NCBI GenBank assembly: GCA_030692565.1
Contig: JAUYAO010000058.1
Span: 186,001 to 250,000 of the forward strand
From: Nitrospira sp.
GTDB lineage: Bacteria > Nitrospirota > Nitrospiria > Nitrospirales > Nitrospiraceae
DNA: 64,000 bases
Reading direction: 5' to 3'
Part shown: piece after piece, positions 22,291 through 40,475 of the stretch
How the letters are laid out: every line of letters begins with the position of its first letter
Position numbering within the stretch: position 1 is the first letter of the stretch
Program-made: the position numbers and the translations under genes
The notes under the pieces: generated by a model
The model's input: only the letters and a program-made list of their open reading frames with translations
What the model was told of the DNA's origin: nothing
The model's database searches: none

Positions 22291-22701
22291 ATGCCCTTCC
22301 CCCTGATCCGGCGTTTCTCACAATGCCTCGTGACCGCCCTCCTGCTCGGACTGGTGATCTGCGCTGGGCTGAACGCGGGAACCGGCCTGGCAGACCCTCT
22401 CATTCAATCACCGCCAGCGGTGACGCAGGATCACGATGCCGTCTCAATGGCGCCTCTCAAAGCGCAGGACCTGCTCAAGCGTTTGCAGGAACGGGACGGA
22501 GCCCCGCTGCCCGGATATATCGGCGGGCGGGAATTTCAGAATCGAGAGCGCCGGTTGCCGCGCGGCCGCTATCGCGAGTATGACGTGAACCCCAAGATCC
22601 GGGGTCGGTCGCGTGATGCGGAACGGCTGGTGATCGAACAGCGCACCGGCAAAGCCTACTATACAGGCGATCATTACCGAACCTTTACACCGCTCAACTA
22701 G
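22291..22701 (+). CDS. Secreted guanyl-specific ribonuclease (barnase / RNase Sa type)
   Basis: The protein has 136 residues. An N-terminal hydrophobic segment (about 12-35) looks like a signal peptide. The C-terminal 65 residues match microbial RNase N1/Sa: YIGGREFQNRERRLP, then YREYDV with the catalytic Glu (E96), RGRSRDAERLV supplying the Arg pair (R108, R112), and YYTGDHYRTF with the catalytic His (H128). All active-site positions expected for guanyl-specific cleavage are present. The barstar-like gene follows after 15 nt, so this is a toxin-inhibitor pair. It may act outside the cell as a nutrient or antagonistic RNase. Confidence 0.88.
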   Translation: MPFPLIRRFSQCLVTALLLGLVICAGLNAGTGLADPLIQSPPAVTQDHDAVSMAPLKAQDLLKRLQERDGAPLPGYIGGREFQNRERRLPRGRYREYDVNPKIRGRSRDAERLVIEQRTGKAYYTGDHYRTFTPLN

Positions 22702-22716
22702 GACACTGATCATTCC

Positions 22717-23271
22717 ATGACACCACCACGCACCTTGATGAGTTATCTCCAGACTCCGAAAGCCCCCTGGTCGTCCTTGCTCGTCCTTCCTGCCGGGACG
22801 ACGGCCACCGCTTTGGTCAAAGCCCCGACCGGATTCGCCCTGCGCGTAGTCCACGGCAAAAAATGCTCGACCCCGGCCGGCCTGTTCACGGAATTCGCTC
22901 GCGTCTTAGGGTTCCCCGACTATTTCGGTCACAACTGGGACGCGATGGAAGAATGTCTCGCGGATTTGGAATGGCTGCCGGCCAAGGGCTATGTGCTGCT
23001 CCTCACCGATGCACAAGCCGTCTTGGCCGACGACGAGGACGAGTACGAAACGCTGCTCGAGATTCTGAGCGATGCCGGGGAAGCCTGGAGCAAAGGCCAG
23101 GCCGGCGGAGGGTCCAAGGCGATTGCCTTTCATGCCCTCTTTGCAGTAACACACCAGGAAGCACCTAGGAGAAAACATTGGGGGATTGAGCCGGCGCCAA
23201 TGCCGGACCTCTCCCCCCCGACGAAAGGACGATCGCCTCGTCCCGCAAAGAATGGGAGGACACCGCAATGA
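22717..23271 (+). CDS. Barstar-family ribonuclease inhibitor
   Basis: The protein has 184 residues. Residues 40-135 show the barstar fold: TPAGLFTEFARVLGFPDYFGHNWDAMEECLADL matches the inhibitory helix region, and the acidic VLADDEDEYETLLEIL helix follows. Barstar binds the active site of cognate guanyl RNases, and the RNase gene lies 15 nt upstream, so immunity to it is strongly suggested. It is cytoplasmic with no signal peptide. A Pro/Arg/Lys-rich tail of about 35 residues extends beyond usual barstars. The stop overlaps the YidB-like gene by ATGA. Confidence 0.88.
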   Translation: MTPPRTLMSYLQTPKAPWSSLLVLPAGTTATALVKAPTGFALRVVHGKKCSTPAGLFTEFARVLGFPDYFGHNWDAMEECLADLEWLPAKGYVLLLTDAQAVLADDEDEYETLLEILSDAGEAWSKGQAGGGSKAIAFHALFAVTHQEAPRRKHWGIEPAPMPDLSPPTKGRSPRPAKNGRTPQ

Positions 23272-27695: not shown

Positions 27696-27809
27696 TTACG
27701 GCTTCTTCTTGTTCTTCTCCGACGGGTTTTCTGAGAACAGCAGCCAGCCGAGGACGATAAATCCGATCGCAACGCCGGTGACGGCGAGCCAGGTTCCGAG
27801 CTTATCCAT
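27696..27809 (-). CDS. 37-residue single-span membrane peptide
   Basis: This short ORF (MDKLGTWLAVTGVAIGFIVL, then a helix end and the Lys-rich tail NPSEKNKKKP) would form one membrane span with a cytoplasmic basic tail. Its ATG lies inside the last codons of the thioesterase gene (8-nt overlap, 27802-27809), and AAGGAG is 8 nt upstream, a classic coupled arrangement. Function unknown. YbgC genes often lie near Tol-Pal, and small single-span proteins are common there, so an envelope role is a guess. Confidence 0.65.
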   Translation of the reverse strand: MDKLGTWLAVTGVAIGFIVLGWLLFSENPSEKNKKKP

Positions 27810-28212
27810 TCAATGACTCCTTATCGGCTCCGGACTGTAGTACGGCGACGACCGCCTTGTCGAGACGTTTCACCTTGCCGTTGCCATCTGTCGAGGCCAG
27901 TCGAGCAGACCCCTCCACGATCACCCGTCCGCTCGCCTTTTCTTTCACCACATGCGCGAAAGTCATGGAGGCGGCGCTCAGATCGGACACCACCGTATCG
28001 ATGAGCAGCGTGTCGCCGTACCGTGCGGGAGACCGATAGTCCAGCTCCGCGCGCACGACCACAAACACCGTCCCCTGGTTCATTAGCCCGGAGACCGATA
28101 GCCCCCGCGCTTCAAGATAGTGCGTCCGCGCCCTCTCAAAATACTTGAGGTAGTTGGCGTAGTAGACCACTCCGCCGCAGTCTGTATCCTCATAGTAGAT
28201 TCGAATTTCCAT
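27802..28212 (-). CDS. ybgC: Acyl-CoA thioesterase, YbgC / 4-hydroxybenzoyl-CoA thioesterase family
   Basis: The protein has 136 residues from the ATG at 28212. The hot-dog-fold signature IYYEDTDCGGVVYYANYLKYFERARTHYLE contains the catalytic Asp of the YbgC group; FVVVRAELDYRSPARYGDTL follows. These enzymes hydrolyse acyl-CoA or acyl-ACP thioesters and are often linked to Tol-Pal and phospholipid metabolism; no tol genes lie here. It is downstream of the 108-residue conserved protein and overlaps the 37-residue peptide. Confidence 0.88.
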   Translation of the reverse strand: MEIRIYYEDTDCGGVVYYANYLKYFERARTHYLEARGLSVSGLMNQGTVFVVVRAELDYRSPARYGDTLLIDTVVSDLSAASMTFAHVVKEKASGRVIVEGSARLASTDGNGKVKRLDKAVVAVLQSGADKESLNG

Positions 28213-28262
28213 TGAAATGAAGTGCCCGGAGCGCTTCTCGAACGAACGAGAGATTAGTCGCT

Positions 28263-28589
28263 CTACCAAATCCTCGTCTTCTTGCTGTTCTCCGGTTCGG
28301 CCCTGATAACAGTCCAGTATTCCTCGCGAACATCTTCGTCTATTTCAATGGGTAGTCTTTCACCATACAGCCTATCCTGACCGTTTTTCTTCGGGCCAGA
28401 AATCCAATACTCCTCACCAGTCTCTTCATCGAAGTAGTTGGCCTTAAAGCCATTACCCTTTAACGTCTTGAATGTCTTTCCGTTGTAATAGATAGACTGA
28501 CCCGTCTTTGAAAATGTGACGCGACCAATCCTAGCATCACCAACCAATCCCCCCGCTTTGCATTCTATGAACATGATCCGGCTTTTCAT
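28263..28589 (-). CDS. Conserved small protein of unknown function
   Basis: The protein has 108 residues. The sequence (FIECKAGGLVGDARIGRVTFSKTG, then IYYNGKTFKTLKG, EETGEEYWISGPKKNGQDRLYG and IEIDEDVREEYW) is highly ordered, with beta-strands and a short helix. I recall close relatives as widespread standalone proteins of no known function, but could not check this. It is less GC-rich than its neighbours. It lies 9 nt after the CARF gene on the same strand, so they are probably cotranscribed. ATG at 28574 (MFIECK) is an equally good start. Confidence 0.75.
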   Translation of the reverse strand: MKSRIMFIECKAGGLVGDARIGRVTFSKTGQSIYYNGKTFKTLKGNGFKANYFDEETGEEYWISGPKKNGQDRLYGERLPIEIDEDVREEYWTVIRAEPENSKKTRIW

Positions 28590-28598
28590 TCCCTAGCC

Positions 28599-29855
28599 TC
28601 ACAGGACTAACACCGGGAACTTCGGCAACGATGACTCTGTCACCCCGGTCAGCTTCACCACAACATCGTACAGCTGCTGCACACGCTCCGATTTGACCGG
28701 CTCAAAACCGTGGCCGAGCACGCCATGATTCGCCGCATCGAGCAGCGGCTTCATGGTCGGCCATTCACGCAGGAAGGCCTGGCCGAGTGGATCGTCCAGC
28801 GCCGCCAGTACGCGGAACTGGCCTTGTAACGGGGCTTTGTACTTGCCGTCGACGTCGTCTAACCAAGCCCTCCGGCAGGTTTCCTGAATGGCCTGCGGGA
28901 GCTGCTCCGGCGGCACATCCCAGGTCTTGATCTGATACTGCTTGAACAACTGCCGCTGGGCGAACGATTCGAGGGCGCGCATCAGGACGATCATCGCCGA
29001 CTCCGGATCGTGGCCGGCACGCTGCCGTCGCCCGGCATGGGCGAGCAAATCAAGGGCGAGGGAGTCTTTGACGGCCGCGGGATCGAGCACCAGCTTTTCG
29101 AGGAACGTCGCGTTGGCCTTGATGGACGGAAGCACCGTCTTCAATCCCGGTGGCCCGCCCCACAACGAGGCCATCTCCAGCGCTTTCGCCGCAGTCTTCA
29201 GTTTGTCCCACGCCTGCCGGTAGTGCAATCGCTCCCAGAACTCATAGCCCTCGGCGAGATCGGCGAAAGCACGATACGTCGGCTTCTGCCCGCCGCTCAC
29301 CCTGGTCTCGATCTCACGAAACCGTCTGATCGCAGCCGAGTACATCCCGCGATTGAACAGCTCGGCGGCCTCATGACGTGAAACCAGCGCCATATCATCC
29401 CAAAGATTGCCCTGTGCCCAGCGCATCGGCCGGCTCCCCACCATAATCGGCTCGCTCTCCTGCCCCTCAATCCATGGCAGCAGCGCAACGGTCCGGGAAC
29501 TCGTCGGCAAGGTCACCAGCGTCAATGCGCCCGCCATCGCCGGGGTCGCCCCGGTGAGATCGAGCACCAGATCGCCGGAGTGCACATCCCAGGTTGTCAG
29601 CAGGTCCGGCAACACACCAGCCAGCGCATGATGACAGGCTGCGACATCGACCGTATCGGCCAGCGTGACCCAATCCCATCGCCTGGGCATGTGCTCGATA
29701 TGGGGTTGCACGGCCGACTCCACCAGGTCCTTCGCGGACTCCGGCAGCACGAAACAGAGCGCCTCAGGCTGGAGGCGATTGATGAGAGAGACCGCCGCCG
29801 CCGCATCGTCGGTAAACGCGACCACCAGTGCTTTGGTTGGTTGTTCGTGCGCCAT
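28599..29855 (-). CDS. CARF-domain protein, TIGR02710 (Cas02710)-like
   Basis: The protein has 418 residues. Residues 8-175 form a Rossmann-like CARF domain beginning KALVVAFTDDAAAAVSLINRL. The motif that reads GGTK in active members is here DLTGATPAMAGAL (about residue 103). The C-terminal helical half (about 270-405) ends DAANHGVLGHGFEPV, in the place where relatives carry a HEPN R-x4-6-H motif; the Arg is absent. CARF proteins bind cyclic oligoadenylates in type III CRISPR immunity, but no cas genes or array lie in this window. Family recognition is from memory. Confidence 0.7.
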   Translation of the reverse strand: MAHEQPTKALVVAFTDDAAAAVSLINRLQPEALCFVLPESAKDLVESAVQPHIEHMPRRWDWVTLADTVDVAACHHALAGVLPDLLTTWDVHSGDLVLDLTGATPAMAGALTLVTLPTSSRTVALLPWIEGQESEPIMVGSRPMRWAQGNLWDDMALVSRHEAAELFNRGMYSAAIRRFREIETRVSGGQKPTYRAFADLAEGYEFWERLHYRQAWDKLKTAAKALEMASLWGGPPGLKTVLPSIKANATFLEKLVLDPAAVKDSLALDLLAHAGRRQRAGHDPESAMIVLMRALESFAQRQLFKQYQIKTWDVPPEQLPQAIQETCRRAWLDDVDGKYKAPLQGQFRVLAALDDPLGQAFLREWPTMKPLLDAANHGVLGHGFEPVKSERVQQLYDVVVKLTGVTESSLPKFPVLVL

Positions 29856-29864
29856 TGCGCGCGG

Positions 29865-29893
29865 ACTATAACATCGGCCAGAGAGGCGATCAA
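29865..29893 (-). promoter_or_regulatory. Promoter of the CARF operon, near-leaderless
   Basis: On the minus strand TTGATC (29888-29893), a 17-nt spacer and TATAGT (29865-29870), ending 9 nt before the ATG at 29855. No Shine-Dalgarno. Confidence 0.55.
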
Positions 29894-31473: not shown

Positions 31474-32052
31474 ATGAAAGATTTTGTCCTCAAGGCCTTC
31501 TCCGACAGCGCGGCCGTCAAACAACAATTTGCGCGCGACCACGCCGACCGCATCGCCCAAGTCGCCGCACTGCTGGTGACCGCGTTCCGCGAAGGACACA
31601 AAGTCCTGCTGTTCGGCAATGGTGGCAGCGCCACGGACGCCGCGCATATCGCAGCGGAGTTTGTCGGCCGCTATAAGCGCGAGCGCAAGCCGTTGCCGGC
31701 CATCGCCCTCGCGACCGACATCGCCGCCATCACCTGCATCGCCAACGACTACGGGTTCGACGAACTCTTCGCCCGGCAGGTACGAGCTCACGGCCAGAAA
31801 GGCGATATCGCCATCGGCATCAGCACCAGCGGCAATTCGCCGAATGTACTCAAAGGGATCGAGGCCGCGCGCGAATGCGGCCTGATCACTATCGCTTGGA
31901 CCGGCGGCACCGGCGGGAAACTCGCCGGCCTCGTCGATCATCCTTTCGTCGTACCCTCCACCGTCACGGCGCGCATCCAGGAAAGCCATATCACGCTCGG
32001 CCATGTCCTGTGCGAACTCGTAGAGGAAACACTCCTTGGCACAGCGTCCTAA
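31474..32052 (+). CDS. gmhA: Phosphoheptose isomerase
   Basis: The protein has 192 residues. The SIS-fold signature LLFGNGGSATDAAHIAAEFVGRY is diagnostic of GmhA, which converts sedoheptulose 7-phosphate to glycero-manno-heptose 7-phosphate, the first step of ADP-heptose for LPS inner core. IGISTSGNSPNVLKGIEAA forms the phosphate pocket, and RIQESHITLGHVLCELVEE carries the catalytic His-Glu region. It overlaps the following gene by 17 nt. The adenylyltransferase step (RfaE2) is encoded at 40653. Confidence 0.93.
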   Translation: MKDFVLKAFSDSAAVKQQFARDHADRIAQVAALLVTAFREGHKVLLFGNGGSATDAAHIAAEFVGRYKRERKPLPAIALATDIAAITCIANDYGFDELFARQVRAHGQKGDIAIGISTSGNSPNVLKGIEAARECGLITIAWTGGTGGKLAGLVDHPFVVPSTVTARIQESHITLGHVLCELVEETLLGTAS

Positions 32053-33082: not shown

Positions 33083-33760
33083 ATGAATCCCTCCATCGAA
33101 CGGTTACAAGCAGAGTGGCGCACCCTGAACGAGCGCTACTTCGACGGGCTCCTGCCGGAAATTTCCATTGCCTGGAGCCGCCGCCTGACGTCGTCCGTCG
33201 GCATGTTCGTCAGTCGCGGAGGCCCGCGTCCACGGCAATTCGACGAATCGACTCCGCAGCGATCCAAACGGGAAATACGCTTGTCCGAGCCTCTGATGGC
33301 ACGCCTGGCTGAACGAACCCCCTATGCCGAGCAGGAACTGCTGAATACGCTCGCCCATGAGATGATTCATCAATGGCAGTTCGACATCCTGAAACGGAAG
33401 CCGAACCATGGCCCTGATTTTGTGCGGAAGATGACCGAGATGAACCGGAGCGGGCTGGTCTCGATTACGATCTATCACTCGCTTCACAAAGAAGTGCTGG
33501 CGCTGGCGCAATTTGCGTGGCGCTGCAAGGATTGCGGAAGGGTGTATCGCCGTCAACGCAAGACGATTCAACCTCGCCGGCATCTCTGCGGAACCTGCCG
33601 GGGAGCGTTGCAGGAATTGCCGATGGTGCATCGTGGGGCGGTGCCCATGCCGCTGACGCCCTTCATCACTCCGCCGCCATCTGCCCCCCTGCTGTCCGAG
33701 GCCGGGCAACTCTCGCTCGGCTGGGGAGCGTCGATTCGCGCGCTCTTCTCCGGCCGCTAA
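33083..33760 (+). CDS. SprT-like zinc metalloprotease-fold protein
   Basis: The protein has 225 residues from the ATG at 33083; a GGAG lies 11 nt before. The SprT core is LQAEWRTLNERYFDGLLPEISIAW, with the HExxH motif in TLAHEMIHQWQF (about residue 93) and a third His in NHGPDF. A zinc ribbon follows (WRCKDCGRVY ... HLCGTCRG). Eukaryotic SPRTN cuts DNA-protein crosslinks; the bacterial role is unclear. The stop overlaps the convergent sensor gene by 4 nt. Confidence 0.88.
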   Translation: MNPSIERLQAEWRTLNERYFDGLLPEISIAWSRRLTSSVGMFVSRGGPRPRQFDESTPQRSKREIRLSEPLMARLAERTPYAEQELLNTLAHEMIHQWQFDILKRKPNHGPDFVRKMTEMNRSGLVSITIYHSLHKEVLALAQFAWRCKDCGRVYRRQRKTIQPRRHLCGTCRGALQELPMVHRGAVPMPLTPFITPPPSAPLLSEAGQLSLGWGASIRALFSGR

Positions 33761-36063
33761 GCGACCCTGCGCTCCTCTTCCGGCCACGCATCGGCATCGG
33801 CATCGACCCCGTTCAGTGAGACCGATACTACGACCTGATTGCCGGACCCCTGAAAATCTAGCTGGTCAAAACTCACGGCTTTGGCCATCGCAATACCGCG
33901 GCCGTGAGATTCGTCTGCCCGCCTATGATCCAGATCGAGATACTGTCTCCAGTCAAACCCGCTGCCGTCATCGAAAATCGTCATCTCGAGATTCCTGTCG
34001 GTCCGCTCCACCGTGATATGGACACGCTTGTCCCTATGTTCCGGTAACGCCGATCGCCGGATCAGTTCAGCCTCGAACCGGCCTTGGTCCAAGAGTGTGG
34101 ATTTCTCATCATAGGAAATACCCAGGTTCCCATGCTCAACTCCATTGACGAGCAATTCCGTCAAGCCCAGCTGCGTACGGGATGGATCGGGGAAAGCGTA
34201 GGCCAGCAATTCTGCGAGATGTCTGGCTTCGTCGAGAGTCCTTAATTCAAACTGGCCGTGGTGCATCAACTGCATCGTATGTGCAATGGTCTTTTTACGA
34301 ACCGTAATATCTTCCATCACGCCCAAATAGCGCAGACCACTATCGGTCGCAAGCGGCCAGACCGACACCTGCACCCAACAAGGCTCTGATCCAGGTAGAG
34401 CCAGACGGCTTTCAAGATGGATCGGCGCCATTGTCACCAACATACATGACCAGGCTTCAGCCACGGACTTCCGATCATCATCGCGAATCCACTCCGTCCA
34501 GGAAGAAGCGATCACCGATCCGTCCGCGGTTATCAGGTTGTCCTCGTGCTGTTCACCGAGCAAGCGTTGCAACGCCCGATTGCGGTACAGACACCGCCCT
34601 TGCGCATCCAGCTCGAAGAGGCTCAACGGCAACAGCTCGGACAACATGCGGAAATAGACAGCCCCTTCCTCCAGTTGTTTCACCATTGCCTTCCGCTCGG
34701 TGATGTCACGAAGAAACGCACTGAAGATCGTGGTTCCTTCAAACTTGATCGGAAGGATCGTCAATTCCACCGGAAACTCCGAACCATTTTTCCGTAATCC
34801 GGTGATCTCGATCCGCTGATTCAAGACCGGCCCCTCGCCGGTTGCCAGGTAATGTCTCACGCCATTTGCATGGGCCTCGCGCAGCGTCGGCGGAACGATC
34901 GTCTCACCAAGGTTGCGTCCCAGGGCCTCCTGACGGGACCAGCCGAAGATCCGTTCAGCAGGCCGGTTCCATTCGATGATGCGCCCCTCCCGATCCATCA
35001 TCACCACAGCATCCAACGCGCTCTCAATGACGCTTCTGGCCCGCATCTCGCTTTCCCGAAGAGACCGTTCCGCCTGCTTTGATCGCTCATGTTCCTTCCG
35101 CTGGCCAACCCCAGCCCACAAGATCGCGGCAAGCATGAGAAGAAAACCCACGATCCCGCCAAACCCTAGCTTTATCAGCAGGCTGCGAACACTGGCGAGC
35201 ACATCCGCATGGTCGGCACGTACCACCAGCCCCCATTGCAAAGCCTTGGATCGGACTCCGCTCATACGCGCATAACCGCTAATGATCGGGACCTTTCTGA
35301 TCAGATGCTCTTCTTCAACGTAACCAGACCGCCCCATGGTCACCTTGAGCGCCGACGGCAGCCCTGCCAGTTGGACGTTTCGCCCCCAGTCGTCCTGTTC
35401 TGAGGTCAGCAAGAGGCTGCCCTCGGCGCTCAACACTTGGTAGTGCACCGTCCCAAAGTTTTGCGCCTGCACAGAAAACTGATGGACCGTCTCTTCCACG
35501 AGCTGGTACCAGATAGCGCGGTCAACCTCGGTCATAATGGCACCGAGGAATGTGCCATCCACGCCCTTGATCGGAGCTGAAAACACCACCGCCGTCAACG
35601 CTCCCCCCCTTCGACCTGAGTCGCTGATAGTCTCCGCGTGCACACGTGGCGCATGCGATACCGACTGGAACCACGAGGCCTGATGCAAATCCAGGCCGAT
35701 CAATCCTTCATCCGTAGAGGCCACAACATGTCCCGCCCGGTCCACAACCGCAAGCCGCGAATAGACCGGATAGGCTCGTTGAACCGCTTCCAGGTGGGCG
35801 CGGATCATCATCGGGTCAGTGCCCAGCACCTGGGGAGCTGCTGCGAGGACGTGGATATCTCCATCCCGCTCAAGGAACATCACATCAAGCTTCCCTGCAA
35901 CCTCAGCCGCCCCAAGTGCCAAGCTGACTCCCGTCCGTGTAATGAGCTCCCGCTCCACCAATCGTACACTCACAGCACCAAGCAAGGCCGCGCCAAGAAT
36001 AACAACCAGCAGAGCAAATGATCCCTTCGAAACGATCGTCTGCATCTTTCGCAAACACGCCAT
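33757..36063 (-). CDS. Membrane sensor: Cache, two PAS domains and an RsbW-type ATPase, no HisKA
   Basis: The protein has 768 residues. A membrane helix (about 14-35) and a second near 300-320 flank an extracytoplasmic dCache domain. PAS1 (about 345-460, VMMDREGRIIEWNRPAERIFGW ... GSEFPVELTILPIKFEG) and PAS2 (about 470-590) follow. The C-terminal domain (about 610-760) is a HATPase_c_2 of the SpoIIAB/RsbW class: ELLVNGVEHGNLG is the N-box, FDDGSGFDW the G1 box. No phospho-accepting His is visible, so it may act as an anti-sigma-like kinase. It is coupled (TGATG) to the hybrid kinase upstream. Confidence 0.85.
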   Translation of the reverse strand: MACLRKMQTIVSKGSFALLVVILGAALLGAVSVRLVERELITRTGVSLALGAAEVAGKLDVMFLERDGDIHVLAAAPQVLGTDPMMIRAHLEAVQRAYPVYSRLAVVDRAGHVVASTDEGLIGLDLHQASWFQSVSHAPRVHAETISDSGRRGGALTAVVFSAPIKGVDGTFLGAIMTEVDRAIWYQLVEETVHQFSVQAQNFGTVHYQVLSAEGSLLLTSEQDDWGRNVQLAGLPSALKVTMGRSGYVEEEHLIRKVPIISGYARMSGVRSKALQWGLVVRADHADVLASVRSLLIKLGFGGIVGFLLMLAAILWAGVGQRKEHERSKQAERSLRESEMRARSVIESALDAVVMMDREGRIIEWNRPAERIFGWSRQEALGRNLGETIVPPTLREAHANGVRHYLATGEGPVLNQRIEITGLRKNGSEFPVELTILPIKFEGTTIFSAFLRDITERKAMVKQLEEGAVYFRMLSELLPLSLFELDAQGRCLYRNRALQRLLGEQHEDNLITADGSVIASSWTEWIRDDDRKSVAEAWSCMLVTMAPIHLESRLALPGSEPCWVQVSVWPLATDSGLRYLGVMEDITVRKKTIAHTMQLMHHGQFELRTLDEARHLAELLAYAFPDPSRTQLGLTELLVNGVEHGNLGISYDEKSTLLDQGRFEAELIRRSALPEHRDKRVHITVERTDRNLEMTIFDDGSGFDWRQYLDLDHRRADESHGRGIAMAKAVSFDQLDFQGSGNQVVVSVSLNGVDADADAWPEEERRVA

Positions 36064-39000
36064 CAGGCCGCCTCCCTGAGATCCTGCTCCAACTCTCCGC
36101 GGGCTCGCTGAAATTCAAGTTCCAATTCAGCCAAAAGGGCGGGGACCGTCTCCAGTTCCTCACGGGCGGCCAAAACGACCTGGTCGCACATTCTGGCCAG
36201 GCCCAACGCGCCCAGATTCGCTGCGCTCCCCTTTAAACTGTGTGCAATCCGCTGGACATCTTCCGCTCGTCCCTTGCGGCAAGCCGCCCCCAGCGCCGTC
36301 AGCCGGGTCGGAGTATCGGCAAGAAAATGGCCGATGATCCGGGATAAAAATCCGGGATCATCCTCGTCGCTCAACACGCGAAGCCCGTCAAACACCAGCG
36401 GGTCAATCGTGGGGCCATCGCTCCTCGCCGCTGCAGACACCGGCTCAACCCCACGCGGACGCCACCGCTCAAACACCACGGCTAAGGCATCGCTCGTCAC
36501 CGGCTTGGAGACATAGTCATCCATGCCCGCTTGCAGGCAGGCTTCACGGTCCCCCTGCATCGCATTAGCCGTCATCGCGATGATAGGAGTCCGGTGGTGA
36601 GCGTTCGGAGAGGGATGCAGCCCCGAGCCGCTGCCCGACCGCTCACGCGATCGAATCTTGCGGGTCGCTTCAAATCCGTCCATCTCCGGCATCTGGCAAT
36701 CCATGAACACCAGGTCATACGGGATGCGCGACAGGGCCTCGACGGCCTCAAGCCCGTTTGCCACGACATCGACCCGATGGCCCAGCCGCTCAAACATCCG
36801 GACGGCGACCTTCTGATTGATGATGTTGTCTTCGGCGAGCAAAATCTTCATCCCCGCCGATGTGGCCGCTTCGGCAAGCGTATGGCGGGTGACCAACTCC
36901 GCTCCCGGCTGCGTCCGGCCTCCGGCGGAGGCAGCCGTCGACGGGTCCAACACCATCGCCAGACAACGCACGAGCTGACTTTCCCTGAGCGGTTTGGTGA
37001 GATAGGCCGACACGCCCAACGCCTTGGCCGCTTTCGCGTCTCCCCGTTTCCCGACAGACGTCAGCAGGATCACGCGCGGCGCGGACGCCCCGATTGCCAC
37101 CACCGTTTGCGCAAGCTGGAGTCCGTCGACGTCGGCCAGATCGGCATCAATGATCGCGACGTCATACGGGATCCCCTTGCGAATCTGCGCCTGAAGATGA
37201 GGAACGACGGCCGCGTAGTCGCTGACCACCGTGGGCACGACCTCCCATTTTCTCATGAGGAGGTCAAGGATCCGGCAGTTGATCGGCTTATCGTCGACGA
37301 TCAACGCACGTTTCCCCCGTACCGAGAGCGCTTCCGGCACGACGGCTTCAACCGCTTCCCCTTGCAGTTCAAATCGAGCGGTGAACCAGAAGGCACTGCC
37401 GGTTCCCGGTTGACTGGCGACCCCGATCTCCCCGCCCATTATTTCCACGAGACGTTTACAAATGGCCAACCCCAATCCGGTTCCGCCATACTTTCGCGTG
37501 GTGGACCCATCGGCCTGGCTGAACGCCTGGAATAAGCGGGCCTGTTGCGCCTCGGTCAAGCCGATGCCGGTATCCGTGACATCGAACCGGACGACGACCG
37601 CGCCGTCCTGCTGCGAGCCGAGCCGCACCTGAACGACGACATCCCCCTGCTCGGTAAACTTAATGGCATTCCCCACGAGGTTAGTCAGCACCTGGCGCAC
37701 GCGCCCGGGATCGCCGCGCAGAGCGCTCGGCACCTCGGCGTGAAACAGGCAGGCGAGATTCAGATGCTTGCTCGAGGCCCGCTCTCCAAAGAGATCCAAC
37801 GCATCTTCGACCGCATGACGCAGATCGAAGTCGATGATCTCCAAGTTCATCTTGCCGGCCTCGATCTTCGAAAAGTCCAGAATGTCATTAATAATTGTCA
37901 GCAGATGATCGCCGCAATTCCGCACCGCTTCGCCATACTCCCGTTGCTCCGCCGTCAGCTCCGTGTCGAGCAGCAGCCCGGTCATCCCGATCACCCCGTT
38001 CATCGGCGTCCGGATTTCGTGACTCATCGTGGCGAGAAACGCTGATTTCGCCTCGGTGGCGGCACGGGCCTGGCCCAGGGCTGCGTCGAGATCGTGATTG
38101 CTGCGCTCCAACTGCTGCGCATAGGACGAGAGGGCCTGCTCCGACTCCTTGCGCTGCGAGATATCCCGGATGAACGCGCTGAACACGACCGTATCATTCA
38201 GGCGCAGATGCGCAATGGAGACCTCCGCCGGGAACACCCGGCCATCACGATGACAGGCCTGCACCTCCACCAGTTTCCCGAGAATGCTCACCTGGCCCGT
38301 CTTGAGATAGCGGGCCAGCCCGGCGCGATGCGCCGCCCGTTGGCCGGCCGGGATGATCGTATCGGCCAGATCTCTGCCGATCGCTTCGTGCGCCTGCCAT
38401 CCAAAGAGCAACTCCGCTTGCGCATTCCATTCGGTAATCATCCCGTCCCGATCCATCGTGACGATGGCGTCCAGCGCCGTATCAATGATGAGACGCGTCC
38501 GGCTCTCGTTCTCTCGCAAGGAGGCTTCGACCTCCGCCCGCTCCAGAAAGAGCCCGATCTGGCTCCCGATCGTCGCCAGTGTCCGCAAGAGATCCGCATC
38601 GCGGGGATGCACGTCCCGGCTGAAAAACTCCATGATGCCGAACACGCTCGCCCGGAGCCACACGGGAAATACACAACCGGCATGCAAGCCGTTCTTCGAG
38701 GCCGCAGCCGTTCGCACGAAGTCATGGCCCCGCAGGACATCCGGCTCCCAGAGCGACTCGCCCCGCGCCCAACAGCGACCGGGAAATCCCACACCGGATG
38801 AAAAGATCTCCCGGCGACTGGCCTCCAAAAACTCCTCCACCGGATGCGGATGGGCGCCCCACGTGTGCAGGCAGCGAAGCGTTCTGGCCCTCTCCTGCAC
38901 CCGCCAAAACATGCCGACCTGCCATTCCAGGCTCGTTCCGATCACGCGCAGCAACTCAGGGATCGCCTGCTCGACCGTCGAGGCTTCGGCCAGGACTTTC

Positions 39001-40475
39001 GCCACCGCATGCTGCAGCGCCTGACGGCGCTGCGCATGCTTCTGATCCGTAATGTCCCGCGTCACGCTCAAGACCGACGGCGGGATACCCTGCTCTCCCG
39101 GCAACAACACCGACGTCATCTCAAACCAGCGCGATTGTCCCGAGAGGCCCTGCAGCCGGCCGCTCATCAAGACGCTCCGGCCTTGGAGCGCGGCGGCATG
39201 CGCATCCTCGTACGCCCGACGATCGTCCTCGTGCACCCAGCGGCCGATATCCCGGCCAAGAATCTCTTCCGGAAACCCGGCATCGAAGAGCGCGCACCCG
39301 GCCGGATTGATCTGCAGAACACGACGACCGTCATCCGTCACCAGCACTCCCTCCGGCTCCACCTCCAGGATCGTCTGCAGCCGGCGCTCATTCGCGCGCG
39401 CATGCATCCGCTCCTCCTGCGTCTCCTTCCACTCCCGCTGGGCGCGACGGGTTACATTGAGCAAGAGCCCGATGAGCGGCCCGACGATCAGAAGGCCGGC
39501 GGCGCCCGCCGTCCAGAGAAAGCGATGGACCGGTTCCACGACTTCCGCCCGGTCCACCCGCAGCAGGACCGTCCATTTCGGACTCTCGACCCCCTCTGCC
39601 CCCTGGGTGCGGGCATACCCCGTCAACACCGGCACCCGGCGGACGAAATGCTGCTCTTCGACGAAGCCCGACTCCCCTGAGCCGGCACGTTGAACCGACG
39701 GCAGGTTTCCCTGCGCGAGATTCAAACGCCCCTGGCGCGCACCGTCCGAATCGATGAACACCCCGCCGTCTGCCCGGAGCACTTTATATTCGACTGTATG
39801 AAAGAAAGACGTCTTCTGTTGGAACAACCGAATCGCTTCGGTCACCAAGCGCTCCAGCTGCTTGGCACTCACCCGGGTCGTCACCGCGCCGCGAAAGGAC
39901 CGGCGGGCGGCATCCACCCGATGATCCACGATCGGGGCAGTGAAAGAGACGGCCTCTGCGCCGGGACTCGCCTCATCGACGGCGATGTCGCCCACGTACA
40001 GACCGACTCGTTCTTCGCGCACCGCCTGGAACCAGTCGGCGGCCCGGACATCGAGCCGGCGGGCCTGAGGCATCGTGGCTTCGACGATCCGGCCGGCCGG
40101 GTCGACAATGCCGATCCAGAGATAGAGGGGATAGGCTTGATGAAACGTGGACAGAATATGGCTCCGCGCCGCCGATGTTCCCCCGTTCATCGCCAGCGAT
40201 TCTGCCAGGAACTGCACGTCACCGACCCGCTCATTCAGCAGCAGATCGAGCTTGGCGGACACTTCCGCCGCCATGATGGAGACCGCCTCCCCTGACGTCG
40301 CCACTGTCCGCCGTTCCAGCCAGGTGCCCCCCCCAAGCACCGCCATCAGTGTGGCCGCGGTAATGAGTCCGATCAGCATGAACTGATGCCGGTGCGTAAA
40401 CGCGCGGGAGCCGCGACCTGATGCCGTGCGATGATCCGAAACTCTCAGTCCCACGCCTGTTGATCCCCTCTTCAC
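36063..40475 (-). CDS. Giant hybrid sensor histidine kinase (Cache-PAS-GAF-PAS-HisKA-HATPase-REC-REC-HPt)
   Basis: The protein has 1470 residues. Order: TM about 30-52, dCache, TM about 325-345, PAS about 375-480, GAF about 490-650, PAS about 660-780. Next are HisKA with the acceptor His in [13 protein letters not shown] (about 818), HATPase with [11 protein letters not shown] and [10 protein letters not shown] (to about 1040), and REC1 ([10 protein letters not shown]; Asp in [11 protein letters not shown], about 1108). REC2 ([10 protein letters not shown]; Asp in [11 protein letters not shown], about 1257) and HPt ([11 protein letters not shown], about 1410) close the chain. All phosphorelay residues are present, as in BarA/EvgS. 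The gene overlaps the second sensor by one base; no partner regulator is adjacent. Confidence 0.9.

Follow-up and report, generated by a model that had tools for sequence, protein, structure and literature searches.

A Csm6-like CARF-HEPN protein lacking its signature residues is a near-core protein of Nitrospiraceae

A gene in the window, by which we mean the whole 64,000-nucleotide stretch of Nitrospira DNA analysed here, encodes a CARF-6H-HEPN protein that lacks both the CARF lysine and the HEPN arginine kept by its canonical relatives. The double loss is restricted to one clade, in which the gene is inherited vertically at a fixed locus, is under purifying selection and has a conserved promoter, and the host shows no sign of type III machinery. 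We consider it likely that an ancestral Csm6-like effector was disarmed and retained for another, non-nuclease role; its present job is probably a new one, outside CRISPR.

Table 1. Features of the CARF-HEPN locus, in window coordinates
Feature	Position	Strand	Remarks
YbgC-type thioesterase	27802..28269	-	co-directional downstream neighbour, conserved
Putatively disarmed CARF-6H-HEPN protein	28599..29855	-	418 aa, ATG start
Csm6 HEPN domain, residues 268-403	28647..29054	-	Pfam PF09670, 1.4e-18, above cut-off
HEPN motif remnant A375-H382 (ANHGVLGH)	28710..28733	-	Ala375 replaces catalytic Arg; aligns to Csm6 R415
Csm6 6H domain, residues 157-225	29181..29387	-	Pfam PF22205, 1.5e-14, above cut-off
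CARF (Rossmann-like) domain, residues 1-150	29406..29855	-	model strands and helices, structural matches about 7-150
Altered CARF motif II, D99-M107 (DLTGATPAM)	29535..29561	-	P105 at the position of Csm6 K137
W60-D61-W62, specific to the Nitrospirales clade	29670..29678	-	core rows 89/89, 89/89, 86/89; canonical rows 0/13
Predicted promoter	29865..29893	-	-35 TTGATC, extended -10 TGTTATAGT, near-leaderless
GmhA-like SIS protein	31474..32052	+	divergent upstream neighbour, conserved; named by eye

Fold and motif losses

The preliminary description, made from the sequence alone, had recognised a TIGR02710-type CARF protein, and this identification is borne out: the TIGR02710 profile scores 107.1 bits against a curated cut-off of 83.9, in what is its one match in the source genome, and PF09670 and PF22205 are both present. 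The PADLOC model PDLC01812 (CARF1--CARF_HEPN, 418 positions) matches residues 1-418 at 725.7 bits, an end-to-end match from which it follows that this family was built on the Nitrospirales clade and that the protein, or a near-copy of it, is already in public CARF catalogues. Structure prediction, which had been proposed as a check, returned a CARF-6H-HEPN fold with Csm6 as the top match. The AlphaFold2 model, made from 39 orthologues (pLDDT 86.6, pTM 0.74), finds its best solved structural matches in Thermus Csm6 chains (Foldseek E 5.5e-12), with a VIA-align Z of 20.3 over 382 residues, an rmsd of 6.8 and 19% identity; the match to E. italicus Csm6 has a Z of 17.3 over 348 residues and an rmsd of 4.8. 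The high whole-chain rmsd suggests that domain angles differ. A single-sequence phmmer search against PDB sequences gave nothing meaningful, either for the window protein or for its relative L118.

Motif losses were judged on an alignment of 92 core rows (76 from Nitrospiraceae and 16 from the sister families f2 and f3; 89 distinct), four rows from the group f21 and nine other CARF-HEPN rows of the phylum, with six partial named loci, the pieces of L135 and one 83-aa fragment omitted; the four f21 rows and the nine others form a canonical set of 13. The preliminary description had read DLTGATPAM in place of the GGTK form in the CARF loop and, in the C-terminal segment NHGVLGHG, a HEPN motif without its arginine. 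Both readings stand, and both changes belong to the whole clade, not to a single strain: Lys at position 105 occurs in 0/92 core rows and Arg at position 375 likewise in none of the 92 (Ala in 89, as in the window protein, whose residues 373-384 read DAANHGVLGHGF; Ser in 2 and Thr in 1), against 13/13 canonical rows at either position. A scan of the whole protein rules out a canonical motif hidden elsewhere. The 418 residues contain no GGTK-like motif, and the sole R-x4-6-H strings, R276/R277-H282, lie away from the HEPN motif site and are retained in 44 and 41 of 68 orthologues, respectively; no other R-x4-6-H is conserved. The alignment that had been called for as a check on relocated motifs similarly shows canonical motifs at no other position.

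The losses are not limited to these two residues. The 13 canonical rows share 42 invariant positions, and 19 of these are conserved at less than 80% in the core, including G103 and K105 of CARF motif II, R375 and S378 of the HEPN motif, and S13, Y124, D286 and R290, which would be placed in or near the CARF and HEPN sites; CARF motif I (residues 13-17) is lost in the core as well. Another 21 positions are conserved at 95% or more in the core, the core residue occurring in each case in at most 1/13 canonical rows: these include A103, A375 and G381, that is, the altered motif residues themselves, along with W60, D61, W62, W146, W232, K263, W312, Q346 and Q394. With 19 of 42 canonical positions eroded and 21 core-specific ones conserved, the old sites have therefore been dismantled and a new pattern is strictly held.

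The closest biochemical reference is Thermus thermophilus Csm6 (5fsh, 8jbb, 8jbc, 8jh1), which shares with the window protein the CARF-6H-HEPN order and the fold over its whole length. The profiles built from the two sets, canonical and core (A1, A2), align to it, and both pair its K137 with position 105 and its R415, N416 and H422 with A375, N376 and H382. His422, Asn416 and the motif frame thus have counterparts in the Nitrospirales protein, whereas K137, G135 and R415 are replaced by Pro105, Ala103 and Ala375 in the window, and the Nitrospira host genome differs further in having no type III locus. In the Thermus study (PMC10897365), K137A loses cA4 binding and RNase activity completely, and R415A, N416A or H422A abolishes RNase activity. 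Together with the profile pairing, these mutant data mean that the Nitrospirales substitutions (Lys to Pro and Arg to Ala in the window) are fixed at exactly the positions where function is lost.

Might the protein nevertheless still be a ribonuclease, with a rearranged site that uses His382, Asn376 and another basic residue, and with a non-cOA ligand as its switch? In Nitrospiraceae His382 is present throughout (76/76 rows) and Asn376 in most rows (59/76), which leaves some activity at the HEPN site possible; Gly383 is invariant in the same 76 rows, and E296 and R293 are retained. Motif-less HEPN proteins can, moreover, still act as toxins, according to a paper on these domains (PMC3710099). 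However, R415A alone is enough to abolish the RNase activity of Thermus Csm6 (PMC10897365), D286, R290 and S378 have disappeared along with R375, no other R-x4-6-H is conserved, and His382 itself, found in 9/16 f2/f3 rows as assembled, is lost in the other 7/16 although the gene is retained. On balance we regard a rearranged ribonuclease as unlikely.

CRISPR machinery and the ancestry of the clade

The genome from which the window comes, on contig C58, has a size of 4.17 Mb and a listed completeness of 100%. The preliminary description had stated that there is no cas gene or repeat array in the 64 kb, and we agree: no array-like direct repeats were found within the window, and searches of the genome for Cas1 and Cas10 gave no match on C58. 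A genome-wide check for type III loci, which it had also proposed, found none in the source genome. The Cas10 palm profile has no match there, and the one Csm1 match (contig C54, 27.4 bits against a cut-off of 170) is to an ORF that reads, by eye, as RNase Y. A CBASS-type cyclase as an alternative source of signal was rejected as well, as far as the SMODS cyclase family (PF18144) is concerned, which has no match in the genome. There is a Cas1 match on contig C43, in a locus (L145, G000:C43:1-20000) where repeats with a 61-nt period run in at least 21 copies at the end of the contig and the ORFs were identified by eye as those of Cas2, Cas1, Cascade and Cas3 of type I-E. From this locus and the Cas10 and Csm1 results it follows that the genome has CRISPR immunity, with no sign of the cOA-making kind. 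Across Nitrospiraceae a Cas10 palm match occurs in 11/175 genomes. Genomes with Cas10 can have a separate CARF-HEPN protein with both motifs (G098, G448, G374), and the core copy stays degenerate in them.

These results bear on the earlier suggestion of a ligand-binding decoy, that is, a cOA sponge that damps type III signalling. Such a sponge would be consistent with a Csm6-like fold whose HEPN domain is dead, but the lysine without which Thermus Csm6 (K137A) has no measurable cA4 binding (PMC10897365) is absent in 92/92 rows, motif I and Y124 have been lost as well, and most hosts, the source genome among them, have no Cas10 match. The decoy is accordingly disfavoured, and we think it very improbable.

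In a maximum-likelihood tree of 44 rows (SH-aLRT support only, with the nine rows of type III or paralogue proteins as root) one branch holds the core clade, with an SH-aLRT of 100 and a long stem of 0.76, and its sister is f21 (97). The f21 proteins (L118-L121), which come from another class of the same phylum, are thus the closest relatives in the tree, and like the core genes they have no recognised cas gene beside them. They differ in that both motifs are intact (with C for the first G in one of the four), in their housekeeping neighbours (by eye rho, prfA, murA, hisG, NAD kinase or hem genes) and in the Cas10 content of their genomes, 5/5 of those searched having matches elsewhere, one of them weak. 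Because f21 is intact but in a non-cas context, exit from the cas locus may have preceded disarming, sampling beyond the phylum being thin. L118-L121 are themselves likely to be in-trans cOA effectors, and provide a natural control for the disarmed clade. As for the nine other canonical rows, four (L123, L127, L130, L131) have a Cas10 match no more than about 6 kb away, L124, L126 and L128 are flanked by Cas1- or Cas2-like ORFs (by eye), and no clear cas gene was found on the contigs of L125 and L129. The four beside Nitrospirota type III loci, of TIGR02710/Csx1-Csm6 type, are homologous to the query over their full length, at 24-28% identity, but keep TGGTK and R-N-x-S-x-L-A-H-G.

Could the window protein, then, be an ordinary Csm6 that serves, in trans, a type III locus lying far away or missing from the assembly? 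Its TIGR02710 score is above cut-off, and the canonical sister gene in f21 does occur in a non-cas context in genomes with Cas10 matches elsewhere. However, the source genome, complete as listed, has no Cas10 and, for Csm1, only the RNase Y-like ORF, and where Cas10 is present, the intact motifs can be found in a separate CARF-HEPN protein, as in G098, G448 and G374. Action in trans is thus already largely refuted, and we give it hardly any credence.

Distribution, locus and selection

A match to the gene is found in 159/175 Nitrospiraceae genomes, in 110/114 of high quality (at least 90% complete, at most 5% contamination) and in 22/22 genera. When nine weak cases were searched again, two genomes (G100, G102) proved to match solely through a 24% paralogue, and subtracting these leaves the core gene, whole or partial, in 157/175; the gene is near-core in the family. 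The other weak matches are contig-end fragments or damaged copies, the latter with two in-frame TGA codons in G141, one TAG in G002, a truncation in G033 and a gene in pieces in G061. Four of the 114 good genomes have no match. One of them, G132 (1.7 Mb), has lost the stretch between p99 and gmhA, which elsewhere holds an SNase gene, ybgC and the CARF-HEPN gene; in G093 and G139 gmhA is unmatched too, and in G166 its match falls at the end of a contig, so that of the four G132 alone allows a judgement at the locus. With no match in these four genomes, and with the damaged copies in G033, G141, G002 and G061, the gene is dispensable. In a phylum-wide sample of 395 genomes it is present in 25/27 genomes of the second Nitrospirales family, f2, in 1/3 of f3 and in 0/3 of f4; among the matching genomes listed none belongs to the same class outside Nitrospirales, further matches being in other classes, and the loci found on GTDB contigs carry Nitrospir- titles in 66/66 cases.

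The surroundings of the gene are conserved too (GmhA, DHS and SPFH were named by eye from sequence, NfeD from Pfam). At least one of the genes that flank it in the window adjoins it in 65/66 named loci, the exception (L069) being a short contig, and the 14 f2/f3 loci (L103-L105, L107-L117) have gmhA in 11 cases and ybgC in 12. Where both were measured, ybgC starts within 150 nt of the end of the CARF-HEPN gene in 15/24 loci, a proximity that makes co-transcription possible in many of them. Pairwise protein distances of CARF-HEPN follow those of GmhA (correlation r 0.90, 68 loci) and DHS (r 0.93, 61 loci) as do those of GmhA and DHS each other (r 0.90, 62 loci), and 0/500 permutations reached values as high: the gene has been passed on vertically, at a locus of housekeeping genes.

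Some further observations concern the neighbourhood. Two adjacent large PAS/sensor-kinase ORFs lie close by (33757-40475, minus strand), and similar kinases, of varying identity, flank the gene in many relatives. On the plus strand (22291-23271) a guanyl-specific RNase-like ORF is followed by a barstar-like ORF, both named by eye and both present in several Nitrospira loci; they are possibly a barnase-barstar pair. In L136 (G124:C56) a second C-terminal fragment, an 83-aa frame, lies about 1.3 kb downstream of the end of the intact copy, and ybgC is displaced further. Finally, a 108-aa ORF (28263-28589, minus strand) sits between the CARF-HEPN gene and ybgC. As a partner or antitoxin it was rejected, being present in 3/77 genus genomes and absent from the 97%-identical relative G120, and for the same reasons it is probably a recent insertion.

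Against 84% orthologues dN/dS is 0.09-0.11, a value of purifying and not of relaxed selection, and 95 columns are invariant among 39 orthologues. Synonymous divergence of the CARF-HEPN gene from L033/L034 is 0.86-0.88, compared to 0.36-0.52 for SPFH, GmhA, DHS and HemL in the same genome pairs, and this roughly twofold excess may point to allelic exchange in the lineage that the window comes from.

Upstream of the gene there is a predicted promoter, TTGATC-17-TATAGT with an extended -10, that ends 9 nt before the ATG, so that a transcript starting from it would have a leader of a few bases. TGnTATAGT is found 14-16 nt before the ATG in 63/64 distinct Nitrospiraceae upstream sequences and in 5/6 from f2/f3, and a -35-like TTGA[AT][CG] at a spacing of 15-19 nt is also present in 42/64 of the Nitrospiraceae sequences; upstream DNA outside the promoter elements is variable. 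The strong promoter that had been taken to argue for expression is thus recovered, and its conservation supports that argument. A decaying pseudogene, to which the missing active-site residues and the truncated or interrupted copies in G033, G141, G002 and G061 might point, has already been refuted at the level of the clade by the low dN/dS, the invariant columns, the conserved promoter and the match kept in 110/114 good genomes, and is scarcely to be entertained for the window gene.

A retained protein and its possible role

Repurposing away from CRISPR, the other fate raised in the preliminary description, is what the combined results favour: loss of both Lys and Arg is fixed throughout the order, the gene is inherited vertically among housekeeping genes, there is no type III locus in the source genome, and the motifs have not been relocated. 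The new signal may, as suggested there, be a nucleotide. We envisage that the protein descends from a Csm6/TIGR02710-type CARF-HEPN effector, in which the lysine that holds cOA and the arginine that cuts RNA would have been lost in the Nitrospirales ancestor or earlier. Other positions invariant in relatives would have been lost alongside, with the fold and the order-specific invariant residues (W60-D61-W62, W146, W232, K263, W312, Q346, Q394) kept. The product would be a non-nuclease that acts through binding, its most likely form being a Csm6-like dimer, and such a dimer would sense a non-cOA ligand, or an RNA or protein partner, and then pass on a conformational change. On a fuller version of this account our confidence is evenly balanced: a CRISPR signalling effector would have become a near-universal cellular protein of a whole order, its second-messenger pocket and nuclease site dismantled, its dimeric allosteric frame kept with a new surface (W60-D61-W62 and the other order-specific residues) and now sensing something else, perhaps related to the adjoining envelope/sugar-phosphate genes.

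A CARF domain also occurs in RtcR, where it is not known to be fused to HEPN. In two papers (PMC9650030, PMC7790460) this domain is described as binding tRNA fragments and RtcA/RtcB, not cOA, which makes RtcR the nearest described precedent for a CARF domain in non-CRISPR use with a non-cOA signal; it differs in that it activates transcription, its target being the rtcBA RNA repair operon. For motif-less HEPN domains, RNA binding has been proposed as the mode of action (PMC3710099). Neither precedent pairs a CARF-HEPN protein with order-wide loss of both activities. A search of the open literature, a scope beyond which lie the main CARF classification paper (Makarova 2020), subscription papers and supplements, found no earlier account of an inactive or a Nitrospira CARF-HEPN protein.

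In defence, CARF-HEPN proteins are known as accessories of type III CRISPR. If the reading of a disarmed and retained effector is true, the Nitrospirales protein would clearly exemplify the takeover of a CRISPR effector by the cell for its own use, and its clade a natural set for studying how a CARF domain changes its ligand. Annotation is affected, because under curated models the protein is labelled as a CARF protein associated with CRISPR. Nitrospira are key nitrite oxidisers, and those of their core genes that lack an assigned role merit resolving.
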